Source: Dehalogenimonas sp. THU2
GTDB taxonomy: Bacteria > Chloroflexota > Dehalococcoidia > Dehalococcoidales > Dehalococcoidaceae
Direction of reading: 5' to 3'
Length of the DNA stretch: 64,000 bases
NCBI RefSeq assembly: GCF_039749495.1
Contig: NZ_JBDLLU010000007.1
Location: 1 to 64,000, forward strand
Shown: positions 12,104 to 63,649 of the stretch, one piece after another
Position numbering within the stretch: position 1 is the first letter of the stretch
How the letters are laid out: every line of letters begins with the position of its first letter
Notes under the pieces: model-generated
The model's input: the letters and a program-made list of their open reading frames with translations, nothing else
The model's database searches: none
What the model was told of the DNA's origin: nothing
Made by a program: the position numbers and the translations under genes

Positions 12104-12714
12104 CAGCCTTCCACCGCCCTTCTGGTGGGGCTCATCTTATCGACTTTAGCGTGAATGTCCAGGATAGCCTGCAACAGCGCTTCCGGGCGCGGCGGGCAGC
12201 CCGGGACGTAGACATCGATCGGTACGATCTTATTGAATCCGGGCACCACGGAATAAGAACCTTTGAAGATGCCGCCGGAGGTGCCGCAGGAGCCCATGGC
12301 CAGCACCCACTTGGGATCCGGCATCTGGTCATAGATACGCTTGAGCCAGGGGGCCATCTTCCAGGTCAGTGTACCGGCCACGATCATGAGGTCGGCCTGC
12401 CGGGGAGAGGCGCGGAAAATTTCCATACCGAAGCGCGCCAGGTCGAAGCGGGAGGCAGCGGTGCACATCATCTCGATGGCGCAGCAGGCCAGGCCGAAGG
12501 TCACCGGCCACATCGAATAGTGGCGGGACCAATTGACTACTTTGTCGACGCTGGTTAAAAGAACGTTGGAGGCCAACGGCGGCGCGTTCAGCCAGTCTAT
12601 CGGGTCAGGGATAGCGGTCTGATGGCTCTTCAGAAAACTCTCGACGATCTCGCCCTCCCGTGCATCGAGTTCGATGTCGGAATAGGCGAAATTGCGCGGC
12701 GGTTCTATTGCCAT
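12103..12714 (-). CDS. nuoB: NADH-quinone oxidoreductase subunit B (cluster N2)
   Basis: A 203-residue subunit carrying the terminal 4Fe-4S cluster N2. Ligands are visible in [11 protein letters not shown] (tandem Cys), [10 protein letters not shown], and [13 protein letters not shown]. An N-terminal extension of about 60 residues precedes the core. It passes electrons to quinone at the NuoB-NuoD interface. It overlaps nuoA by 10 bases and nuoC by one. Confidence 0.98.
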
Positions 12715-13079
12715 TCCAGCGCCCCTTTCTTCCAGGCGTAAAAATAGCCCACCGTCACGATGAAGAGGAAAAACATCGCGATGAAAAAGGCGGGGACACC
12801 CAGATCACCCAGGCTGGCCGCCCAGGGGTAAAGAAAAACAGCCAGCACATCCATGACGATGAGCATCAGCGCGTAAATGTAATAGCGGAAATTGAATTGC
12901 ACCCAGGAACGCCCTGTGGTTTCCATACCGCATTCGTAAGTCTCCTGTTTAACCTGGGACGGGTTCCTGGGCACGATCTTGGTGAGCCGGCCGAGAATAA
13001 TCGGAATGAACAGCGTCACCAGGATAAACCCGATGGCAATAATTAAAAAAAGCCCGACATAGCCGAACTGGGTTAACAT
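12705..13079 (-). CDS. nuoA: NADH-quinone oxidoreductase subunit A
   Basis: A 124-residue membrane subunit with three helices. [30 protein letters not shown] is split here only to note the family motif YECG followed by the FRYYIYAL segment and the acidic residue in [12 protein letters not shown]. It is the first gene of the operon. GGAGG stands about nine bases before the ATG and a strong promoter lies 45-75 bases upstream. Confidence 0.97.
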
Positions 13080-13256: not shown

Positions 13257-14435
13257 CTAATCCAGCAGCGTCGGTATGCCCTCCGCCGCCTCCATCGTCA
13301 TGTCGGTTTTCAGGGCGCGGGACTTCTGCCGCTCCTTGAACTCCGCCGCCAGTTCCGTTGATTCCTGGTAGAACTGACGTAGGATGGGTACCTCGGAGAG
13401 GTCGGACAGCATCAACGTTACATCCAGGATTCCGCGTTCCCGCGGATAGTCACCAAGGCGCTGCTGCGCCGCCGGTGCTACCTCCCTGAGGCGTTCGGAG
13501 AGGTCTTTGACCAGTTCGACGCTGATCTCACGGGCGGGCCCGGAAACCAGCAGACCAGCCCGGCCGGCGTCAACGGGGTTGCAGGCGACCGACATCTCCG
13601 CCAGCGCCTCATCCATGGCATATAGACCGCGCTGGTTCTCAAAGTTCTTCTTGAGGTAGTTACGAGTTTTCTCGAACGGTAAAACGATCAAGTCCAGCGG
13701 CACCGTGCCATAGCCGATGCCCGTCCAGCCGCGCAGCGTCTCCTTGAGATCTCCGGTGTCCAGAATCGAGGTGCCTATTGACTTGGCTTTGCGTTCCTCA
13801 CCCGAGCACAGCAGGTTATAGAAAGGTGTGACAATCATCTCGTTGATCTTCTGGAAGTTGCTGGCCAGTGACTGGCTTTTCCGGATGAAACGCTGGTTGT
13901 CCACGAGGATCACCGCATCGGCGGCCTGATTGGCGGACTTGAGGCACATCGCGGTATTGAAAACAGCCCGCTCCTCATTCAGCCGCTCGTGCTCGAAGGG
14001 CAAGGCCACCATGGCGTACACCGGCTTATCCCGAAAATTCTCCTTGAACGCCCGGGCGAATATCGGAAGTGCGCCCGAGCCTGTTCCGCCGCCGCCGGAG
14101 GCCATGAGCAGCAGCGCGTCGGCATCATAAAAGCGTTCGTTCTTCTTCATGATGCCAATGAGGTTATCCCGCTCCTCTTTGGCGATCTCGGCGCCCGTCT
14201 CTGAGATCTTGGCTACCCCGTGGCCGCCGGTGTGACCGGCGCCGATAAGGATACGGTGAAGGGAGTCTTTTTTAACTTTGGTCAATGAGGAAAGGTCGGC
14301 GGTATCGGTGTTGATCGCTAATATGTCGGTGGCAATGCGTAAGTTTCTCTCCTGACGCGCTTTGATGGCCATCCGGGCGAATTCATCGGCGAGCCTGCCT
14401 CCGGCCTGTCCCAGACCGACAATGATCAGCTTCAT
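13257..14435 (-). CDS. CetZ/FtsZ-like tubulin-superfamily GTPase
   Basis: A 392-residue soluble protein. The N-terminus MKLIIVGLGQAGGRLADEF has the GxGQAGG loop of tubulin and CetZ rather than the GVGGGG form of FtsZ. It is followed by RILIGAGHTGGHGV with SETGAEIAKEE, matching archaeal CetZ, and by the tubulin signature GGGGTGSG at about residue 115. A T7-like loop reads CNPVDAGRAGLLVSG. The C-terminal domain is present, so the protein is full length. CetZ proteins polymerise with GTP and shape archaeal cells; a role here is inferred only. It is monocistronic, with AGGAGG before the ATG and its own promoter. A diverged FtsZ paralogue is the alternative reading. Confidence 0.85.
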   Translation of the reverse strand: MKLIIVGLGQAGGRLADEFARMAIKARQERNLRIATDILAINTDTADLSSLTKVKKDSLHRILIGAGHTGGHGVAKISETGAEIAKEERDNLIGIMKKNERFYDADALLLMASGGGGTGSGALPIFARAFKENFRDKPVYAMVALPFEHERLNEERAVFNTAMCLKSANQAADAVILVDNQRFIRKSQSLASNFQKINEMIVTPFYNLLCSGEERKAKSIGTSILDTGDLKETLRGWTGIGYGTVPLDLIVLPFEKTRNYLKKNFENQRGLYAMDEALAEMSVACNPVDAGRAGLLVSGPAREISVELVKDLSERLREVAPAAQQRLGDYPRERGILDVTLMLSDLSEVPILRQFYQESTELAAEFKERQKSRALKTDMTMEAAEGIPTLLD

Positions 14436-14467
14436 TTCAGGGTTCCTCCTGAGTGCATTTCGGCTTG

Positions 14468-14496
14468 AGTCTAAAGGGGCGGGACGGGTTTGTCAA
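14468..14496 (-). promoter_or_regulatory. promoter of the CetZ-like gene
   Basis: Minus strand: TTGACA (14496-14491), 17-base spacer, TAGACT (14473-14468), ending about 32 bases before the gene start. The 15 bases AAAATCCTATTGACA that include the -35 recur exactly at 23935-23949 on the plus strand. Confidence 0.7.
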
Positions 14497-14529: not shown

Positions 14530-14699
14530 TATAATGAGTCATTTATCGACCATGCTTGCCCGGTACTAGTACTTGGTGCTAAAATGTCGACAGATTACCC
14601 TTCGAGCTGTCCTCGCCTAAATCAATCGACATGGCAGGCGGCCGGTCAGGGTGTCGCTGGAAACGGCGGCGCCTCCCGTATTTGGAAAGGAGGGCGGAT
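14530..14699 (+). promoter_or_regulatory. structured moaA leader, possible Moco-type riboswitch
   Basis: A TATAAT at 14530-14535 without a good -35 precedes a leader rich in complementary segments. ATGTCGA near 14582 pairs with TCGACAT near 14625. CGCT and GGCG flank a GGAAAC loop near 14655-14668. CGCCTCC at about 14670 can pair, with one bulge, with GGAGGGCG at about 14689-14696, which would hide the ribosome site of the downstream ORF. Moco riboswitches control moa operons in other bacteria, but I cannot confirm the Moco consensus by eye. Confidence 0.35.
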
Positions 14700-14744
14700 A
14701 TGGCATATTGCCGCCTCTTTATTGGAGGCTGTTTAATAATATGA
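14700..14744 (+). CDS. 14-codon leader peptide coupled to moaA
   Basis: AAGGAGG lies about six bases before an ATG at 14700. The frame codes [14 protein letters not shown] and stops at a TGA (14742-14744) that overlaps the moaA start as ATGA. The ribosome site is better than that of moaA itself. It may serve as a translation-coupling or attenuation device; the two cysteines have no known meaning. It could also be chance, since it is very short. Confidence 0.4.
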   Translation: MAYCRLFIGGCLII

Positions 14745-15730
14745 CTGAAGGCAACTGCATCACCGGCACCTACGATGCCTTCAACCGCCGCGTCAATTAC
14801 CTGAGGATATCGGTCACCGACCGCTGCAATCTGCGATGCATCTATTGTTCCGACGGCGAAATTTCCCATCTCGGACATAACGACATCCTGTCGTATGAAG
14901 AGATAGCCCGTATCACACGGGTGGCGGCGGAGATGGGGGTAACCCATGTGCGGCTTACCGGCGGCGAACCTCTGGTACGTCCGTATGTCGCTAATCTGGT
15001 CAGCCTGTTGACCGCGATACCGGGTATTGAGGATATATCCCTGACCACCAACGGAACACTTCTGGAAGCGCAGGCGGCCGAACTAAAAGCAGCCGGTTTG
15101 AAGCGGATCAACGTCAGCCTGGATTCCCTGCAACCGGATCGCTTCACCCGCATTACCGGCGGGAAGAACCTTCACGATGTCTTCAAAGGCATGGCTGAGG
15201 CGCACCGGGTGGGCTTGTCGCCGGTCAAGATCAATATGGTGGTCATGCCCGGCATCAACGACGACGAGATCGTCGATTTCGCCAAAAAGGCCCGGGACGA
15301 AGCCTGGCACGTGAGGTTCATCGAATATATGCCTTTCGACGGCGCCGGCGCGGAACCGGTGTTGACCGTTTCGGAGATAAAAGACCGGATCGAAACATCG
15401 GCAGGGGCATTATGGGCCTGTTGCCTGAACGGCGCCGGACCGGCCAATTACTATTCGTTCGGCTCCGGCGAGGGCACCATCGGCTTTATCCGGCCGGTGA
15501 GCCATCGTTTCTGCGGCCAATGCAACCGGCTGCGCCTGACCGCTGATGGCAAATTGCGACCTTGTTTACTCAACGACCTGGAAATCGACATCCGGTCATC
15601 GATCAGAAACGGCGGCGGTGAAGCGGAATTGAAAGCTCTGTTACGACAGGCGATCATGGCCAAGCCGGAACGGCATTACCTTGAAGAAGCCGCAGTGGGT
15701 GGCCGCCAGATGCGCCAGATAGGGGGCTGA
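14741..15730 (+). CDS. moaA: GTP 3',8-cyclase MoaA
   Basis: A radical SAM enzyme of 329 residues that starts molybdopterin synthesis from GTP. The N-terminal cluster motif is CNLRCIYC after [19 protein letters not shown] motif follows ([10 protein letters not shown]). The C-terminal second cluster uses FCGQCNRLR and RPCL. The protein ends in the double glycine (RQIGG) needed for activity. The ATG at 14741 gives the usual N-terminus; a longer frame to 14651 lacks family similarity. GGAGG stands 12 bases upstream, and the start overlaps the small upstream ORF. moaC follows with one-base overlap. Confidence 0.95.
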
Positions 15731-39207: not shown

Positions 39208-39500
39208 ATAAAAAACCCTCTGCCTTATTCAGGGGCAGAGGGTTCTGCGGTGCCACCCTTGTTGTTCCTTCTAATGCAGGAACATCTCATTACGGATACG
39301 ACCTTCATTTGAAGGTTTATACCCTGGGATGCTAACGCTTCCCTTGCGGCCGGACCTACTGGTCAGTGGTATGACGTTGGGGCGGCGGCTCCCGGGTCCA
39401 TTCAGTTCCCCGCTCAAGGCGCCGGCTTCCACCTGACCCGGCTCTCTGTGCCCAGCTTTGGGACCTACTAATCCCGTTCATAGCCTTTAGCTATTCGATT
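39208..39500 (-). promoter_or_regulatory. T-box riboswitch, tRNA-Trp specific
   Basis: The minus strand carries the invariant T-box GGGTGGCACCGC (39258-39247) followed by a terminator stem AACCCTCTGCC / GGCAGAGGGTT (39214-39244) and TTTTTT. Stem I is seen upstream with AGTAGGTCCC and GAGAGCCGGG. The specifier loop reads CTGAA-TGG-ACC with TGG at 39400-39398, the Trp codon. Uncharged tRNA-Trp would stabilise the antiterminator and turn on trpB2. Confidence 0.92.
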
Positions 39501-43396: not shown

Positions 43397-43404
43397 TTTA
43401 GTTA

Positions 43405-43675
43405 ACAGCAACGACGGAGAAGAGTAGGCAGGCGAAGGTCCCCAGCGAGTCCGGTACAGTGAGAGCGGACGGAAAACAGCCTTCTGAAAATCACTCCCGA
43501 GCTTCCGGATGAAATCTTCGGGATGAAGAGAGTAATCACCGACGGTTGCCGACCGTTATCGCGGCAGGGCATGTCAGTGCCTGAAAAAGAGCTTCTATCA
43601 AATCATGATAGAGGAAACAGGGTGGTACCGCGGGTCTTTATCCCGTCCCTAGTGGGGCGGGATTTATTATTTTAA
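43405..43675 (+). promoter_or_regulatory. T-box riboswitch, tRNA-Ile specific
   Basis: The T-box GGGTGGTACCGCGGG lies at 43620-43634. A terminator ATCCCGTCCC / GGGGCGGGAT (43640-43663) and a T-rich tail follow. Stem I contains AGAGTAGGCA and GAGAGCGGACGG, and the specifier region reads CTGAAA-ATC-ACTCC with ATC at 43490-43492. This fits the downstream isoleucyl-tRNA synthetase. Confidence 0.93.
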
Positions 43676-54785: not shown

Positions 54786-57188
54786 TTATTCGATCCTGAT
54801 GAGTAACAACCGGGCCAATCGGCGGAAGGATTCCGCCCATACGGCGTGTTCAGGTTGAGTCACTTTTCCCGGATAAAACTCTCGAAGCATGGTATAGAAG
54901 ATGTTCTGGACCCGCCACAAGTTCGGGGAGAGTCCGGAATTCAGGAAGAGCACCAATAGATTGGAGGCGGTGTCTAATTCCCCAGAATCCGGTGGCTGAT
55001 TTTCATCTCGCTGAAGTATCGCTTCCAGCCTTCCCGAAAGATGATAGACAATTTGATCAGCGTCCATGGTGACGCTCCACAATTTTACTTCCTCCAGGAG
55101 GTTCTCGATGGCTCTGAGATCTGGCTGTTCGGACGACAGTGACCGCGCGAGATCGGTATTGAGAACGAAGGCGGCGGCGGCGATAAACTGGGGCGGAGCG
55201 CTCTGCCCCAGTCTGACCATGAAGCGCATGGTGGCATGGTGACGGTGATAGATGTCACGATGAGCCTGCTCGGCTTCCACCAGTGCCGGTGCCATGATGT
55301 GGTGAAGAACCTTGCGTTGTTCATCTACGAAAAGATTCACCAGGCTATAAACAGCGCCGGGAAAACGGCTTTCCAGAAATTTAAGGCAATCGGCGCAGTC
55401 GGCACGGTCGGATAGCTTCCTAACTTCATCAACCAGACTCTGGTATGCGGTATCATTATCAACAACAGCCAGACCCGCGTTAAGATTGTGGTCGCCCCAG
55501 TAGATGGCGGCAAATATATAACGTGTCATTTCCCCGAGAATCGCGGAAGTGACAGTAACGTCTCCAGCTGACATACGCAACCTGCCGGCACCAAAGTGTC
55601 GTATGTCATTGGAGATCACATTGAAGGTGTAAATGCTGGTTTCGGTGCCGTATTCCTCGAAAAACGAACTCAAAGCGAAGTGTGCGACAACCCTGGCCGG
55701 GTCGGTGACCAAAGGTCGCACCTGACGCTCAAATACGTCTCTCCCGGTACCAATTGAGGGGACGTTGCTCCGAGCCTTTTCCAGGATGTTTAAAAAGGTT
55801 TCCTCTGGAGTTTTGATATGTAAATCCCCCGCCAGTTGCAGCGCCCGACCGGCCTGTTTGAGCACCAATATCGATTCCAAGTTGCCAATATCGTCGAAAA
55901 ACCAGCCGCAGCTGGTGTATGCGGCCATCATAAATCGCTGAATCTCCAGGTGTTTTAATGCCCGCGATTTTTCCGCATCCGACAAAGTCCGGGATGCCCA
56001 ATGGCTGAGAAAGGTCTCGATATTGGCAGAGGTACGATCAGCAATGACACTGTGATAGTCGTTCCTGGCCGCCCAGGGATCAGTCAGCAGAGTCTTAGCT
56101 TCACTTTCGAACACCGGTGCAAGGCTGTCCCTGAGGTGATCCATTGCCTCTCGCAGGGGAACCCGCCAATCCTGGTTCCAGCCTGGATGCGAACCGGTCG
56201 AACAGCAGCAACCGCTACGCCAGCGCTCGATACCGTGGGCACAACTCCAGGCAGTGTTTTCAATGATCTCGACATCCGTGGCAGGAGGGTGCAGTTCCAG
56301 ATATTCGCCGATATTTGTAATGCGAATACCAACTTCTTCCAACTTGTTGAAGGCGTAGGCTAGAGCCATTTCCCCGAAACGGTGATGGTGCCCGTAAGTT
56401 TCACCATCAGTGGCGATAGTGACCAACTGCGGTTGTTCGTGGTGGGTGAACGCGCTTGAGATTCGTTCGACCAGGGTGTCCCCACTCTTGAGCAAGTCGC
56501 TGAAGGCAATGTCGTGGGAGAGAGCTTGGTGATAGAAAATGATAGAGATGTGGTTCCCGGACGGTAGCGGACAACGATATGCCTGAGTGGTATCGATGCC
56601 GGCTTCTGGTTTATGCCACTGGCCACCGGGTGCCTTTATCCGTCCGGCCTGCTGCGGTGCCAAAATAACGTACTTGATGCCTCGATCCGACATTATATCC
56701 AGGGTTTCTGGATCCACCGCCGTTTCCGGCAGCCACATGCCCTCCGGGTCCCGGCCGAAGCGGCGGTGGAAATCGCCGATGCCCCAAACTACCTGAGTTT
56801 CTTTGTCACGTCGGTTAGCCAATGGCATGATGATGTGGTTATACCCCTGGGCTATCGCCGGACCATGACCTCGGAATGCCGCCACATTATCCGCGTCAGA
56901 CTGGATAATAGCAGCGTGAACCTCTGGCTGGCTGGATTCGAGCCAGTTGAGCAGTGTCGGGCCGAAGTTGAAACTAAGGTGCCCGAAATTGTTGATGATG
57001 CTGGTTATCTCATTGTTGCCGTTAAGTATCCGGGCAGCCATATTGGCGGCGTAACACTCATCGGTGATGCGCTCGTTCCAGTCGTGATACGGAGCCGCCG
57101 TTTTTTCAATTTCCACAGCTTCAAGCCATGGGTTTTCCCTCGGTGGCTGGTAAAAATGGCCGTGGATGCAAAGAAACCGTTCACCCAT
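54786..57188 (-). CDS. GH57 family glycoside hydrolase (DUF3536 type)
   Basis: An 800-residue protein with no signal peptide. The N-terminal GH57 barrel shows FLCIHGHFYQPPRENPW, MWLPETAVDPETLDIM with the nucleophile Glu, and TIATDGETYGHHHRFGEMAL with the second acid. A long C-terminal DUF3536 domain follows (SCGWFFDDIGNLESILVLK). GH57 enzymes act on alpha-glucans as amylases, transferases or branching enzymes; the exact activity of this subgroup is uncertain. It is the last gene of the malQ-glgB-GH57 operon with a one-base gap to glgB. Confidence 0.92.
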   Translation of the reverse strand: MGERFLCIHGHFYQPPRENPWLEAVEIEKTAAPYHDWNERITDECYAANMAARILNGNNEITSIINNFGHLSFNFGPTLLNWLESSQPEVHAAIIQSDADNVAAFRGHGPAIAQGYNHIIMPLANRRDKETQVVWGIGDFHRRFGRDPEGMWLPETAVDPETLDIMSDRGIKYVILAPQQAGRIKAPGGQWHKPEAGIDTTQAYRCPLPSGNHISIIFYHQALSHDIAFSDLLKSGDTLVERISSAFTHHEQPQLVTIATDGETYGHHHRFGEMALAYAFNKLEEVGIRITNIGEYLELHPPATDVEIIENTAWSCAHGIERWRSGCCCSTGSHPGWNQDWRVPLREAMDHLRDSLAPVFESEAKTLLTDPWAARNDYHSVIADRTSANIETFLSHWASRTLSDAEKSRALKHLEIQRFMMAAYTSCGWFFDDIGNLESILVLKQAGRALQLAGDLHIKTPEETFLNILEKARSNVPSIGTGRDVFERQVRPLVTDPARVVAHFALSSFFEEYGTETSIYTFNVISNDIRHFGAGRLRMSAGDVTVTSAILGEMTRYIFAAIYWGDHNLNAGLAVVDNDTAYQSLVDEVRKLSDRADCADCLKFLESRFPGAVYSLVNLFVDEQRKVLHHIMAPALVEAEQAHRDIYHRHHATMRFMVRLGQSAPPQFIAAAAFVLNTDLARSLSSEQPDLRAIENLLEEVKLWSVTMDADQIVYHLSGRLEAILQRDENQPPDSGELDTASNLLVLFLNSGLSPNLWRVQNIFYTMLREFYPGKVTQPEHAVWAESFRRLARLLLIRIE

Positions 57189-57189
57189 A

Positions 57190-59118
57190 TCAGCTTCCCT
57201 TCACTAGTGTCAGAATTATTCCACCGAGGGGCGGCAGATCGAGACTGATCGAATATGGCCGTCCGTTCACCACTGCGTTTTCTGACTGAATGATACCCTT
57301 GCAAATCAAACTGCCGGAACCACCGTAAATCGGGTCATCGCTGGAAAACGCAACCCGCCAGCTTCCCGTTTCTGGTATGCCGATGCGGTAACCAGATCTC
57401 AGTACCGGAGTAAGATTAAGCACAACCAGCACTATGGCGCCGGGAGCCCTTCCCCTCCGCAAGTAGGCGAGGACACTGGCGGCGGCATCGTCGGCGGCCA
57501 GCCATTCAAAACCGCCGATTTCGGCATCCAGTTCGTGCAGGGCAGGACTTGAAAAATAGAGACGGTTCAAATCGCTCACCAGATCCAGTATCTGCCGGTG
57601 ACGGTCGTACTTAAGAAGTTGCCAATCGAGGGTTTCGTCATGCCGCCACTCATGCCACTGGCCGAACTCCCCACCCATGAAAAGCAGCTTCTTTCCAGGT
57701 TGCGTGAACATATAAGTGTACAGTAATCGCAGGTTAGCGAATTTATGCCATTCGTCACCGGGCATTTTCCCAAGGAGCGAGGCTTTACCGTATACCACCT
57801 CATCATGCGACAGCGGCAGAACGTAATTTTCGGAGAAGGCGTAGATCATGCGAAACGTCAGAACGTTATGATGGTAACGTCGGTGTATCGGGTCGAGTTG
57901 GAAATACCTGAGTGTATCATGCATCCAGCCCATGTCCCACTTGTAACCGAAGCCCAACCCGCCCGTATGGACGGGATGGGACACCATCGGCCAGGCGGTC
58001 GATTCCTCGGCTATCGTTTGGACATCCGGAAAGCGGCGATAGATCTCAGTATTGAGTCGTTTGAGGAGGTCAATGGCCTCAAGGTTCTCCCTTCCCCCGT
58101 TTTTGTTGGGAGACCATTGGCCGGCCTTACGCGAGTAATCCAGGTATAACATGGAAGCTACACCATCGACCCGCAAGCCGTCGGCATGATACTTATCCAG
58201 CCAATAAAGGGCGCTGGAAATAAGAAAACTTCTGACCTCATTGCATCCATAGTTAAATATCCAGCTTTGCCAATCAGGATGGAATCCTCGCTTGGGGTCG
58301 GCGTGTTCATAGAGGTGGGTACCATCAAAATACGCCAGACCGTGTTCATCTCCGGGAAAGTGTGCCGGAACCCAATCCATGATGACGCCGATCCCGGCCT
58401 GGTGGAGATGGTCGATAAGGAACATCAAATCCTGCGGTTTGCCGTAGCGGGCGGTAGGAGCAAAATAACCGGTTACCTGGTAGCCCCAGGAACCAAAAAA
58501 GGGATGCTCCATTACCGGCAGAAGCTCCACGTGGCTGAATCCGGCTTCCTTGACATAATCAGCCAGTAAAAACGCCATTTCCCGGTAGGTAAGATAACGC
58601 CCGTCATTGCCGCGCCTCCAGGAACCGAGGTGTACCTCGTACACACTTATCGGCGAGCCGACGTGGTTTTTCCGCCAGCGTCCTGCCATCCATTCGCCGT
58701 CGGACCAGACATAGTCGATATGGGAAGTAAGGGAGGCGGTATGCGGTGCAGTTTCGGCGGCAAAAGCCAGGGGATCAGCCTTGTCCACCGTATAATGGTC
58801 GCGACGCGACACGATGTGGTATTTATAGAGGCTGCCAGAGCTTATGCCGGGCAGGAAACCCTCCCAAATTCCGGAACTGCCTTTGGGTCGAAGCGGATGA
58901 CTCGTGGTATTCCATTCATTGAAATCTCCAACGACGGTAAGCTCAGCGGCATTGGGGGCCCAGACGGCAAAATAATAACCTTTTACTCCCTTGCGTTTCG
59001 TGGCGTGGGAGCCCAGTTTGTTGTAGAGGGTGTAATGTGAACCTTCGTTGAACAGGTAGAGATCGTCGTCGCTCAGCAGGCTGACGTCATAATACACTTT
59101 AGTCTTTGGGCGAGACAT
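57190..59118 (-). CDS. glgB: 1,4-alpha-glucan branching enzyme
   Basis: A 642-residue GH13 branching enzyme. A CBM48-like domain (YYFAVWAPNAAELTVVGDFN, about residues 45-140) precedes the barrel. Catalytic motifs: DWVPAHFPGDEHGL, DGLRVDGVASMLYLDY (nucleophile Asp), TIAEESTAWP (acid Glu) and LPLSHDEVVYGK. It lacks the extra N1 domain of longer forms. It introduces alpha-1,6 branches in glycogen. It overlaps malQ by 20 bases. Confidence 0.95.
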   Translation of the reverse strand: MSRPKTKVYYDVSLLSDDDLYLFNEGSHYTLYNKLGSHATKRKGVKGYYFAVWAPNAAELTVVGDFNEWNTTSHPLRPKGSSGIWEGFLPGISSGSLYKYHIVSRRDHYTVDKADPLAFAAETAPHTASLTSHIDYVWSDGEWMAGRWRKNHVGSPISVYEVHLGSWRRGNDGRYLTYREMAFLLADYVKEAGFSHVELLPVMEHPFFGSWGYQVTGYFAPTARYGKPQDLMFLIDHLHQAGIGVIMDWVPAHFPGDEHGLAYFDGTHLYEHADPKRGFHPDWQSWIFNYGCNEVRSFLISSALYWLDKYHADGLRVDGVASMLYLDYSRKAGQWSPNKNGGRENLEAIDLLKRLNTEIYRRFPDVQTIAEESTAWPMVSHPVHTGGLGFGYKWDMGWMHDTLRYFQLDPIHRRYHHNVLTFRMIYAFSENYVLPLSHDEVVYGKASLLGKMPGDEWHKFANLRLLYTYMFTQPGKKLLFMGGEFGQWHEWRHDETLDWQLLKYDRHRQILDLVSDLNRLYFSSPALHELDAEIGGFEWLAADDAAASVLAYLRRGRAPGAIVLVVLNLTPVLRSGYRIGIPETGSWRVAFSSDDPIYGGSGSLICKGIIQSENAVVNGRPYSISLDLPPLGGIILTLVKGS

Positions 59119-61231
59119 TCGATACCTTTTTCCTGATTTGATCGATTTTCTTGAGAAAATGTTGTATTTCAGGAGTTGTCTCCAACTCCTCCAACGATAA
59201 CTTTATCTTTCGGCGCCAGTTGGCGTGTTCCTGATAGGTACCGGGGATATTCTGCGCCCGGCGTTCACCAGTAAGGTCGGCAAGATTCACTAACATTACC
59301 TCAGACGTGCTTTCCGCTAATATTTCTGCAATCACGCGGAGAACCTCTTCTGCGGTGGGGTTTATCTCTTCGAAACGGCCTTCAGTGACCAGGCATCTTA
59401 AAAGTGATGTTTTCCCAGCTTGGCGCTGCTCTTTTTCAGCGACAGCCTGTTCCGGCATGAGTACACCGACTGCCTGTCGTTCGGTGATATCCTCCTCGTC
59501 CCAAAATGCGGCAAAGGGATGCATGTCATGTGTATTTAGAGTTGCCACAGAGTCAGCCGGAGCGGCTTCCGGGCAGCCGCCGTCCCCAGTGACCATCTCG
59601 TACTGAGCGACATAGCTGCGGTAGATATGGCGGCGGCGCATCGCCCTCCTCACTTCCCTGGGCACAAGACCCAGGTCCTCGCCGACTATCACAGCCCGCT
59701 GGCGATGCGCCTCCAAACAGAGAATAGCATACAGTTCCTTCGCCTCATAACGGACATAGATGCCTTCGGTGGCTTTCAGTCCCGGCGGGATCCAGAACAA
59801 TCTGTGCAATCCCATAATATGATCGAGCCGCAGTATACCCGCAAAACGAAGATGGTGTCGTAAAACCTCGATGGTATATTTGTAACCGCTTTCACGCTGT
59901 CGCTGTGGATGAAGCGGGGGGAAACCCCAGTTCTGGCCGCCCGAAAACGCCGGGTCCGGCGGCGCGCCGACACTAGCCCCAAGGGCAAAAACAGACTGTT
60001 CCCGCCAGACATCATAACCATCAGGGTGGGTGCCCAGCGACAAATCAAGGTAAAAAGCCTGACCTCGTTCACGCGCGCGTGCCGTGGTATCCGCCATCTG
60101 TTCGTGAGCGATAAACTGAGTGTAGAGATAGTAGCGTAGCAGTTCGGGGCAGCAGTCGGAGTCCACGATATATCCATTACGCAGCTTTTCCGGCCAGTCC
60201 CGCCACGGTGCCTTACGCTCTTCTGAAACGGCGCGAAAACGGCAATAGCGCTCAAGGTCGGGCTTGCTAACCAGGTAGTCGGTAAATGATTTCCAGCGTT
60301 CGGACGGTTGTCGTTGGAAAAATGCTTCGGCCAGCAATTCCAGGATGCCCCGTTTCAGATGGGACGCCCGGGCATAGTCCACCATTTCCAGCGCGCGCAG
60401 AGCTTCAAGTTCATCTTTAAATTCCGTAGAGCGTAATCGTGCCGCAGCTTCCGGACAATCGGCCAGTTCAGGGATCGTCTCTACGTTGATATACAACTCG
60501 TTCCAATACAAGCGGCTAACCGGAGAGTATGGGCTGGGGTTGAAATGCTCTTTGAGGAATACCGGTAAGAGTGGCAGGGTTGCGATCACACTGCCGCCAA
60601 GAGAAGCGTTGAACTCCGCCAGTTTTTCCAGATCGCCGACATCGCCAGCGCCCCAGCTTGTCCCGGAATGCAGGGCGTAAAGCGGACAAAACAAGCCCCA
60701 GCGCTTGGGTCCCCCAGCCGGCGTGAATACATGCGGCGGAGCTGAGATGATTAGAGTGGAGGCGCTGTCACCAGCGATGGAAAGATCAAGTCGGTGGTAA
60801 CCCCAGGGCAACGGTTCCTTAAGCGGAAGCCTGAGATTTAGAATAACACCATCATCCTTTGAGTTTATTGCGGCAAAGCGCGCGATATCTTTCCATTCCA
60901 ATCGGCGCGTCTCTCCGGATTCAAGCCTTAGTTCAGCTTTGATATCTTCTAGCGGCACCCTGGATAATGAAAGCGATATTCCGGCTCGCCGTCCGTTCCA
61001 GGCGATAATAACCGGTTCCACTATTCTTTTCAGGCGTTCATTTTTCAATCGTTCCAGTGCTTTGATTGCATCAGACGTATCCTTTAACTCAATGCCCATC
61101 GCCCGAATTGTCGATATCACGATTTCCGAGGTGGCGCGATGGGTACGACCGTTCATATCCCTGTACGCTGTTTGAATACCGCAGGCTTTTGCCAGCGCCG
61201 CCAGGGCAATGCGGTCTTTCCTCGCCGCCAT
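59099..61231 (-). CDS. malQ: 4-alpha-glucanotransferase (GH77 amylomaltase)
   Basis: A 710-residue GH77 enzyme of the long bacterial type with an N-terminal extension of about 150 residues. RWGLFCPLYALHSGTSWGAGDVGDL opens the barrel. SPYSPVSRLYWNELYI, GILRLDHIMGLHRLFW (nucleophile Asp), VIVGEDLGLVP (acid Glu) and ATLNTHDMHPFAAFW follow. It transfers maltodextrin units. The ATG at 61231 directly follows an in-frame TTG. It leads the operon on minus with a good promoter about 155 bases upstream. Confidence 0.95.
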   Translation of the reverse strand: MAARKDRIALAALAKACGIQTAYRDMNGRTHRATSEIVISTIRAMGIELKDTSDAIKALERLKNERLKRIVEPVIIAWNGRRAGISLSLSRVPLEDIKAELRLESGETRRLEWKDIARFAAINSKDDGVILNLRLPLKEPLPWGYHRLDLSIAGDSASTLIISAPPHVFTPAGGPKRWGLFCPLYALHSGTSWGAGDVGDLEKLAEFNASLGGSVIATLPLLPVFLKEHFNPSPYSPVSRLYWNELYINVETIPELADCPEAAARLRSTEFKDELEALRALEMVDYARASHLKRGILELLAEAFFQRQPSERWKSFTDYLVSKPDLERYCRFRAVSEERKAPWRDWPEKLRNGYIVDSDCCPELLRYYLYTQFIAHEQMADTTARARERGQAFYLDLSLGTHPDGYDVWREQSVFALGASVGAPPDPAFSGGQNWGFPPLHPQRQRESGYKYTIEVLRHHLRFAGILRLDHIMGLHRLFWIPPGLKATEGIYVRYEAKELYAILCLEAHRQRAVIVGEDLGLVPREVRRAMRRRHIYRSYVAQYEMVTGDGGCPEAAPADSVATLNTHDMHPFAAFWDEEDITERQAVGVLMPEQAVAEKEQRQAGKTSLLRCLVTEGRFEEINPTAEEVLRVIAEILAESTSEVMLVNLADLTGERRAQNIPGTYQEHANWRRKIKLSLEELETTPEIQHFLKKIDQIRKKVSNVSPKD

Positions 61232-61386
61232 CAACCGGTAACCGGCCTGACGTTGATAGCGAGCAGAGCCACGAGTATTCCCCTCAATGGCGGGGCGATC
61301 ATGTCCGGCCGGTGGGCGATATTAAATGGCAATTCTCAGACGACCTTTTCCGACACATAGACGTCGATGATCATATCTTTAAAATC

Positions 61387-61415
61387 ATTATACTTAGATT
61401 AACTTGACTTGCCAA
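61387..61415 (-). promoter_or_regulatory. promoter of malQ-glgB-GH57
   Basis: Minus strand TTGGCA (61415-61410), 17-base spacer, TATAAT (61392-61387). It overlaps the divergent glgP promoter by about 12 bases and leaves a leader of about 150 bases before malQ. Confidence 0.65.
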
Positions 61416-61431
61416 AGTCAGCGGATATAAT
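61404..61431 (+). promoter_or_regulatory. promoter of glgP
   Basis: TTGACT (61404-61409), 16-base spacer, TATAAT (61426-61431). The -10 overlaps the first ATG of the glgP frame, so either transcription begins elsewhere or translation uses a later start. Confidence 0.55.
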
Positions 61432-63649
61432 GAAAGGATTAATACAGGCAACATCGCCTTCCGAAAGGCTTAACCTATTGAATGTAAATGATCTTTTATC
61501 CCGATTACCTGAGCGTATAAAGCGCCTGGCCGAACTCTCGGCGAATCTGTGGTGGAGCTGGCATCTGCCAGCCAGGGAAATGTTCGATACCATTGATCGC
61601 CGTCTTTGGCGCTCAACAGGTCATAATCCGGTCAGGATGCTGTACGAACTGAACAGCGACCGGTTGGAGCGTCTGGCTACGAATCAGGATTTCCTGGCGG
61701 TCTATGATACGGTCATGGCCGCTTACGACACGGAATTGACCGATGGTCGGCACTGGCTGTCACGAACGTATCCGGAAGCGATGACTTCTCCGGTCGCTTA
61801 CTTTTCGATGGAGTTTGCTGTTCACAATTCGTTGCCGATGTATGCCGGAGGGTTGGGTGTTTTGGCGGGGGATATCTGCAAAGAATCATCTGATCTTGGT
61901 ATTCCTTTCGTCGGCATCGGGTTCATGTACCCGGAAGGATATTTTCATCAAAGAATCAGCTCCGACGGTTGGCAGGTGGAGCATTACCGACAATTGGATT
62001 TCGAACGGGCGCCTATTTCCCGGGTGACCACACCTGATGGTGACCGGTTTCTTTTAAATCTGCCACTAGGTGAAAAAACGGTATTTCTCACAGCTTGGCG
62101 GGTGCTGGTCGGTCGCAGCATACTGATTCTCTTGGATACCAACGTACCTGAAAACACCCCGGAAGATCAGGGTCTCTCAGCAAGGCTCTATAGTGCCGGC
62201 AGGGAGATCCGCCTGCAGCAGGAATACCTTCTGGGTGTCGGGGGCGTCAGGGTGCTGCGGGCGCTGGGAATAGAACCCGCCGTTTGGCATTGTAACGAGG
62301 GGCATACTTCTTTTCTGCTTCTGGAAAGGGTGAGGGAATTCATGGCTGCCGGGGATGAGATGGTGGTTGCAGTGACCAAGGTAAAGGCGACGTCCGTATT
62401 TACTACCCACACCCCCGTTCCGGCGGGACATGACACCTTCGACCGGGCGCTCATGGAACGGTATTTTTGTTGCTTCTGGCAGAGCCTCAAAGTAGCGCCG
62501 GAGACATTTCTATCGTTAGGTCAGGCGGGACCGGATGAACCGTTTAACATGACGGTGCTTGGACTTAAGCTGTCGGATAAGACTAACGGTGTAAGCGAAC
62601 TTCATGGAGAGGTCAGCCGCCGCATGTGGCGCCGCCTCTATCCGGACAAAGCTGAAGCTGATATCCCTATTGACTACGTAACTAACGGCGTTCATATACC
62701 CACCTGGGTGGGGCCGGAACTGGCTCGCCTCTACGAACGCCATATCGGTCCGGACTGGTATAACCGGCAGGACGAGAAGGAACTCTGGCGATCTGTAGGC
62801 AATATCCCAGATGAGGAGTTGTGGCGTGTTCATCACGGCCGCAAACAGCGCCTCATCCATTATATACGTGAACGGGTAAGGCGGGAGTGGAATGGCGGGG
62901 AAGAGTCAGGGCAACGGCTGGTAGCCCTTGGAGGAATGCTCGACCCGGAGGTGTTGACCATCGGTTTCGTGCGACGTTTTGTCGAATATAAACGGCCAAC
63001 GTTGCTATTCCGTGACATCGAGCGCCTCAAGAACCTAATCCGGAACTGGCAGCGGCCGGTCCAGTTCATTTTTGCCGGCAAATCCCATCCGGCGGATTTC
63101 ATGGCAAAGGAGTTGATCCATAGGGTTTATAATCAGGCTACCGACAAGGAATTCGAGGGTAGATTGTGCTTTGTGGAGGACTATGACCTGCATATGGCGC
63201 ACTATCTGGTGCAGGGCGTGGATGTCTGGCTGAACAACCCCAGGCGATTACTCGAAGCCTCCGGTACCTCCGGCATGAAGGCGGCGGTTAATGGAGTTCC
63301 TAATCTTTCCGTGAGGGATGGCTGGTGGCATGAGGGTTTCAACGGCCGCAATGGTTGGGCTATCGGCGATATCAACAAGGCCGACAATGTCGCCGACGAG
63401 GACGCATTGGATGCCGGGGCTCTTTACTATGTTCTTGAGGAAATGATATTGCCGATGTACTATGACCGGGATCTGGGCGATATCCCCAGGAAATGGCTTC
63501 AGGTGGTCAAGCAGTCGATTGGTTCCGTATTACCCCAGTTCACCGCCAGCAGGATGATGAAAGAGTACGCCGAGAAGATGTATCTGCCCATCGTCAAAAA
63601 AGCAGGATCTCCGGATCTGGGCGGCATTAATACGACCGCATATCGTTAG
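61430..63649 (+). CDS. glgP: alpha-glucan phosphorylase (GT35, DUF3417)
   Basis: A phosphorylase of about 740 residues. The N-terminal DUF3417 domain reads LPERIKRLAELSANLWWSWH. PVAYFSMEFAVHNSLPMYAGGLGVLAGD, EPAVWHCNEGHTSFLLLERV and TNGVHIPTWVG follow, and the PLP lysine is in EASGTSGMKAAVNG. It releases glucose 1-phosphate from storage glucan. Start choice is uncertain: TTG 61409, ATG 61430, or TTG 61478 with AAAGG upstream. A promoter -10 overlaps the ATG at 61430, which favours the TTG at 61478. Confidence 0.94.
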   Translation: MKGLIQATSPSERLNLLNVNDLLSRLPERIKRLAELSANLWWSWHLPAREMFDTIDRRLWRSTGHNPVRMLYELNSDRLERLATNQDFLAVYDTVMAAYDTELTDGRHWLSRTYPEAMTSPVAYFSMEFAVHNSLPMYAGGLGVLAGDICKESSDLGIPFVGIGFMYPEGYFHQRISSDGWQVEHYRQLDFERAPISRVTTPDGDRFLLNLPLGEKTVFLTAWRVLVGRSILILLDTNVPENTPEDQGLSARLYSAGREIRLQQEYLLGVGGVRVLRALGIEPAVWHCNEGHTSFLLLERVREFMAAGDEMVVAVTKVKATSVFTTHTPVPAGHDTFDRALMERYFCCFWQSLKVAPETFLSLGQAGPDEPFNMTVLGLKLSDKTNGVSELHGEVSRRMWRRLYPDKAEADIPIDYVTNGVHIPTWVGPELARLYERHIGPDWYNRQDEKELWRSVGNIPDEELWRVHHGRKQRLIHYIRERVRREWNGGEESGQRLVALGGMLDPEVLTIGFVRRFVEYKRPTLLFRDIERLKNLIRNWQRPVQFIFAGKSHPADFMAKELIHRVYNQATDKEFEGRLCFVEDYDLHMAHYLVQGVDVWLNNPRRLLEASGTSGMKAAVNGVPNLSVRDGWWHEGFNGRNGWAIGDINKADNVADEDALDAGALYYVLEEMILPMYYDRDLGDIPRKWLQVVKQSIGSVLPQFTASRMMKEYAEKMYLPIVKKAGSPDLGGINTTAYR

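Follow-up and report, generated by a model that had tools for sequence, protein, structure and literature searches.

The bacterium Dehalogenimonas sp. THU2 encodes a tubulin-superfamily protein that almost certainly belongs to the CetZ clade; to judge from sequence and modelling, it would most likely form GTP-driven filaments that have an accessory role in the shape or envelope of S-layer cells. We give the whole proposal (CetZ-clade member, GTP-driven filament, FtsA-type docking, accessory shape or envelope scaffold) a probability of roughly 0.55. The functional part is more tentative and would stand slightly below even odds. The gene lies in the window, by which we mean the whole 64,000-nucleotide stretch of DNA that was analysed.

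13257 to 14435, minus strand: cetZ (group A, subclade A1), 392 amino acids (open reading frame, Pfam Tubulin and CetZ_C, tree, fold)

The open reading frame starts with ATG and its ends agree exactly with those in the initial annotation, which had called the product a CetZ-like tubulin homologue in a bacterium. The CetZ_C domain, the fold ranking, the tree and the restriction of plasmid matches to haloarchaea all put the protein on the CetZ side, and the first three set it apart from FtsZ; its diagnostic residues are mixed.

Pfam Tubulin (PF00091) matched the protein at 96 bits (E 4e-27, cut-off 33) and CetZ_C (PF21011) at 55 bits (E 8e-15, cut-off 21.6); the NCBIfam ftsZ equivalog model failed, with 73 bits against a 295-bit cut-off. 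When the family profile was compared with the PDB, CetZ1 (4e-101), CetZ2 (6e-78) and Methanosaeta CetZ (2e-35) ranked ahead of FtsZ (6e-21 or weaker). The predicted structure (mean pLDDT 86, pTM 0.85) gave the same ranking of families: Z was 44.3 to CetZ2 (4b45) and 43.7 to CetZ1 (4b46), with rmsd of 1.9 and 1.8 over around 330 residues, then 38.9 to Methanosaeta CetZ (3zid) and 35.0 to the best FtsZ. The CetZ relatives in Dehalococcoidia form two lineages, group A, which contains the window gene, and group B. In the maximum-likelihood tree group A is monophyletic (98/100) and joins archaeal CetZ (95/87), as the sister of the sampled archaeal sequences rather than nested within them. The FtsZs of the host genome and of archaea fall outside this clade, and a constraint uniting group A with archaeal FtsZ was rejected (p-AU 1e-39). 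A phylogeny had been suggested as a check on the assignment; placement inside ordinary FtsZ was not seen, and well-supported branches part group A from the archaeal and Dehalococcoidia FtsZs.

Group B occurs in other Dehalococcoidia, has about 43% identity to archaeal CetZ and is nested inside archaeal CetZ in the tree. As group A is separate, CetZ seems, on these sequences, to have entered or arisen in Dehalococcoidia at least twice. In the passages cited here, Santana-Molina et al. 2023 (PMC9871819) place Chloroflexota-Dehalococcoidia among CetZ-like sequences on the basis of a CetZ_C HMM match, and describe sparse paraphyletic groups including Dehalococcoidia, a description consistent with groups A and B; those passages do not deal with what is reported below on the paralogues, the tail, the promoter, the coiled-coil partner and the distribution among wall-less genomes. 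Our search of the open-access literature found no paper treating bacterial CetZ proteins, the tail, the partner or the wall-less distribution. We note that in archaea the open frames of some CetZ_C proteins run to 600-780 amino acids, and these are apparently CetZ domains with long extensions (L211 1972-3945 and similar loci).

The motifs quoted in the initial annotation were all found in the 392-residue protein: GLGQAGG at residues 7-13, the HGV...GAEIA segment HGVAKISETGAEIA at 72-85 and GGGGTGSG at 114-121. Sequence and model together show a complete tubulin/FtsZ GTPase fold with nucleotide loops and T7 acids intact; a long C-terminal helix is followed by a linker and a conserved terminal peptide.

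14073 to 14093, minus strand: T4 phosphate loop GGGTGSG, residues 115-121 (alignments, diagnostic columns)
13725 to 13775, minus strand: T7 synergy loop GTSILDTGDLKETLRGW, residues 221-237, with acidic Asp226 and Asp229 (alignment columns)

We used 39 diagnostic columns, those separating canonical archaeal CetZ from FtsZ, derived in the manner of PMC9856176. The protein is CetZ-type at 14, FtsZ-type at 8 and neither at 17. Gln10, His72, Ser120 (in the T4 loop, Thr in FtsZ), Tyr140, Asn198 and Arg326 are CetZ-type; Asp44, Thr69, Gly243 and T7 Asp229 are FtsZ-like. The Asp229 column holds Asp in 41/41 group A, 6/6 group B and 17/17 FtsZ sequences, and Glu in 21 of 29 archaeal CetZ. This split indicates that the window protein is a distinct subfamily, and its function may therefore differ from that of CetZ1. 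The earlier wording, archaeal CetZ rather than FtsZ, thus has the right side of the divide; it needs amending in that the protein belongs to a separate bacterial subfamily, FtsZ-like at several diagnostic positions, such as the T7 Asp in place of Glu.

With CetZ1 and CetZ2 of Haloferax volcanii (PDB 4B46/4B45) the protein shares the fold (Z 44), CetZ_C, the T1 GQAGG, GGTGSG with its Ser, the three residues from Tyr140 to Arg326 listed above, the long C-terminal helix and a conserved terminal peptide; the hosts likewise have several paralogues per genome and no peptidoglycan. It differs in having only some 27% identity to them and in its position as sister to the sampled archaeal clade. Unlike archaeal CetZ, it carries the four FtsZ-like residues named above and a DIPSLL tail instead of ELxPLF, and its host is a bacterium with FtsA in which SepF was undetected. 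The GTPase fold, the T7 Asp and a C-terminal [IV]PxxL peptide are shared with bacterial FtsZ, but identity to the Dehalococcoidia FtsZs is about 21%, the clade is different, most FtsZ diagnostic residues differ and there is no basic end (LRR). BtubA/B and TubZ are also bacterial members of the tubulin superfamily; their sequence matches are far weaker (E 5e-14 and weaker), and the window gene has no plasmid context.

Three other origins of the gene can be weighed against this evidence. A divergent FtsZ paralogue that merely resembles CetZ would account for the 8 of 39 FtsZ-type columns, T7 Asp229 included; the tree, CetZ_C, the fold ranking, the six CetZ-type residues and the failed ftsZ equivalog cut-off make it very improbable, and we rejected it because tree and fold ranking contradict it. 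Bacterial tubulins other than FtsZ are often of the plasmid or phage segregation type, which would suggest TubZ or PhuZ. The gene is, however, chromosomal and syntenic in four genomes, a context on which this idea was rejected as most improbable. Of 72,556 plasmid records searched by tblastn, only those of haloarchaea gave matches, to CetZ; phage records gave no match to the window protein, and viral contigs gave pattern matches only and no relative. CetZ was still called archaea-specific in 2024 (PMC11621097), which would favour contamination of the assembly by archaeal DNA. We consider such contamination vanishingly unlikely and rejected it, since the contig is shared with nuo and moa genes that have Dehalococcoidia orthologues, orthologues 89-75% identical to the gene occur in three single-contig genomes, and group A does not branch from within the archaeal sequences.

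The host genome (1.84 Mb, 99.8% complete) contains five tubulin-superfamily genes, two for FtsZ and three for CetZ. Whether a normal ftsZ also exists had been raised as a check, and the answer is that it does, in two copies, both adjoining ftsA; the FtsZ tails are ELDVPAFLRR and ELEIPAFLRQ. The wall-less genome thus holds two complete ftsA-ftsZ pairs (L036 7600-9975, L037 8141-10492). A reductive dehalogenase gene lies near the second pair, and convergent to that pair is a gene for an Ala-rich coiled-coil protein of 730-913 amino acids with a C-terminal transmembrane-like stretch (L037 10980-13721, L240 10241-12433).

An FtsZ-like peptide, apparently a new observation, ends 48 of the 55 group A proteins, mostly as DIPSLL.

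13260 to 13280, minus strand: C-terminal peptide GIPTLLD, residues 386-392, FtsZ-CTP-like (motif in 48/55 group A)

These ends are of [ILV]P[ST]L type, within the last 40 residues, and most read K-D-I-P-S-L-L. Because the pattern used in the search demands the proline and limits the residues next to it, the evidence consists of the frequency and the flanking positions, which are conserved above most of the preceding linker. The FtsZs of the same organisms end in D[VI]P[SA]FLRR and archaeal CetZ1-type proteins in [DE]x[LI]xPLF; the tail may have descended from the CetZ end peptide and come to resemble that of FtsZ. In other bacteria the FtsZ C-terminal peptide binds FtsA and similar adaptors. 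As the tail is similar both to this peptide and to the end of archaeal CetZ, binding to FtsA is a guess. Group A also has a fourth CetZ subclade, seen in further genomes of the genus, that is without the tail motif (L053 9170-10408, L054 9262-10473, L109).

In the genomes sampled CetZ is confined to the peptidoglycan-less part of Dehalococcoidia, apparently also a new observation. The search of 197 Dehalococcoidia genomes for CetZ_C was positive in 41; among 301 genomes drawn from Chloroflexota there were 21 positives, all Dehalococcoidia, and the other Chloroflexota sampled had no CetZ relatives. FtsW/RodA was present in 86 of the 197, with an overlap of 0 with the 41 CetZ genomes where around 18 would be expected. 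In the RpoB tree every sampled CetZ carrier falls within one FtsW-less clade and there are 2 FtsW state changes in all, in agreement with the single peptidoglycan loss reported previously (PMC10284905). The exclusion of CetZ and FtsW is therefore context and not independent statistical support, since it reflects essentially one ancestral loss. MreB scored 440-480 bits in walled relatives but had no strong match in any of 22 wall-less genomes, and SepF was not detected in 23 genomes, nearly all of them CetZ carriers. One genome of the same genus, G189, has zero CetZ_C matches and keeps both FtsZs, which argues that CetZ is accessory; its patchy presence even inside one genus argues that the role is dispensable.

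The gene had been said to stand alone with a strong promoter. The promoter is indeed present.

14468 to 14496, minus strand: sigma-70-type promoter TTGACA-17-TAGACT (10/12 consensus matches)
14445 to 14450, minus strand: perfect Shine-Dalgarno sequence AGGAGG, 9 nt 5′ of the ATG (sequence; orthologues have a similar G-rich block)

TTGACA and TTTAGACTCAAA/G are retained at equal spacing upstream of three orthologues as well as the gene itself (4/4), and the rest of the upstream DNA has diverged among those three loci. The promoter therefore has double support, from the consensus and from conservation of its hexamers in diverged DNA. Purifying selection on cetZ is strong, judging by dN/dS of 0.05-0.12 among the orthologues, at dS close to saturation. 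The claim of isolation holds only in part: 177 bp beyond the gene comes the nuo operon, in the same orientation, and moaA diverges upstream.

12705 to 13079, minus strand: nuoA, first gene of the nuo operon (Pfam PF00507)
14651 to 15730, plus strand: moaA, divergent neighbour, then moaC and a MOSC-domain gene

The A1 cetZ is directly upstream of nuo in all four orthologous loci, and its sister in a second family (L058) adjoins the same moaA-moaC-MOSC-moeA cluster. A promoter-like site is also observed 5′ of nuoA. A molybdenum/tungsten (Moco) riboswitch (14589-14708, plus strand) overlaps the region where moaA starts; it lies in the gap 5′ of cetZ, on the opposite strand.

The A2 paralogue sits by the gene for GAPDH, or by that for enolase in other genomes. 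A3 is on the same contig as the window cetZ, some 6 kb past the window end at C7:70146, and is paired with the gene for an uncharacterised coiled-coil protein, a pairing that is apparently new. This neighbour, which accompanied A3 at all 10 loci inspected, is rich in Ala, Glu and Lys, has 425-910 residues and repeat periods of 7, 11 and 18, and carries a conserved terminal motif that approximates [KR]xR[LM]xxLxxM[YF]; the two examples tested had no Pfam match. Representative loci are as follows.

L039 11385-14117 (C7:71381 onward), L043 6377-9079, L052 7781-9106, L225 6699-8411 and others: A3 coiled-coil protein

A model of its tail matched 12 of 12 A3 genomes, always beside A3; 18 other genomes gave nothing save two weak unlinked matches (E 0.0024 and 0.08). 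Ten of the A3 loci that it matched had gone into building the model, so what is informative is that the gene adjoins A3 each time and is missing from genomes that lack A3. No other lead to a working partner is as strong as this coiled-coil neighbour.

Haloferax CetZ1 controls rod shape and motility (PMC11621097, PMC9856176). We propose that the bacterial CetZ subunits would bind GTP and stack head to tail, T7 Asp229 of one subunit completing the GTPase site of the next, such that the filaments would turn over. The tail GIPTLL (consensus DIPSLL) would dock the filament on a membrane adaptor, for which FtsA is the best candidate because it is present in these cells and SepF was undetected. Under the S-layer of these cells, which have no peptidoglycan or MreB, the filaments would then provide an accessory scaffold for cell shape or for envelope complexes, in the manner of Haloferax CetZ1. 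They would not substitute for FtsZ in division: we infer from the two ftsA-ftsZ pairs, and from the retention of both FtsZs in G189, that CetZ is not an FtsZ replacement. The A3 paralogue would probably work with the adjacent coiled-coil protein. Whether the peptidoglycan- and MreB-less Dehalococcoidia run a CetZ cytoskeleton of this kind, with the FtsZ-like tail binding FtsA and A3 binding the [KR]xR[LM]xxLxxM[YF] coiled-coil filament protein to shape S-layer cells, is a broader idea that we advance as a plausible conjecture, with the odds somewhat against it.

Two other functions deserve consideration. The protein might be an accessory divisome tubulin, similar to a third FtsZ, that co-assembles with FtsZ at midcell through FtsA and has no part in shape. 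The likeness of the tail (D[IV]PSLL) to that of the cells' own FtsZ (D[VI]P[SA]FL), the two copies of FtsA with SepF absent, and a catalytic Asp as in FtsZ all fit; on the other side, CetZ is patchy and has zero CetZ_C matches in one same-genus genome, no CetZ gene was linked to division genes in the neighbourhoods examined, and archaeal CetZ, which is not a divisome protein, ends in a related peptide too. We regard a divisome role as unlikely, if a serious contender. The genes constantly found beside the window copy, nuo and moa, are metabolic, which counts against a shape filament and would suit one that positions or organises respiratory complexes (nuo) or Mo-cofactor enzymes, as would the linkage of archaeal CetZ genes to metabolic and pilus genes (PMC9856176). 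Yet cetZ has its own promoter and nuoA a second promoter-like site, the other two paralogues adjoin glycolytic genes or the coiled-coil gene, and linkage is by itself no proof of function, so that this role appears doubtful.

To return to the accessory shape or envelope filament, CetZ together with the coiled-coil protein linked to A3 points to an unstudied bacterial cytoskeleton. These wall-less bacteria have CetZ as a conserved trait in multiple copies, and several of them, in the host's family, have closed genomes. This opens the question of how shape is controlled in a bacterium with neither peptidoglycan nor MreB, and whether CetZ accompanies S-layer cells generally. The coiled-coil gene next to A3 puts a name to one candidate partner, and the tail peptide is a putative docking site open to test. 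Elsewhere in the window we observed two T-box leaders (43402-43653, plus strand, and 39228-39490, minus strand) and, at 54786-63649, a glucan/glycogen cluster encoding a GH57 protein with DUF3536, a branching-enzyme-like protein, a 4-alpha-glucanotransferase and a phosphorylase.
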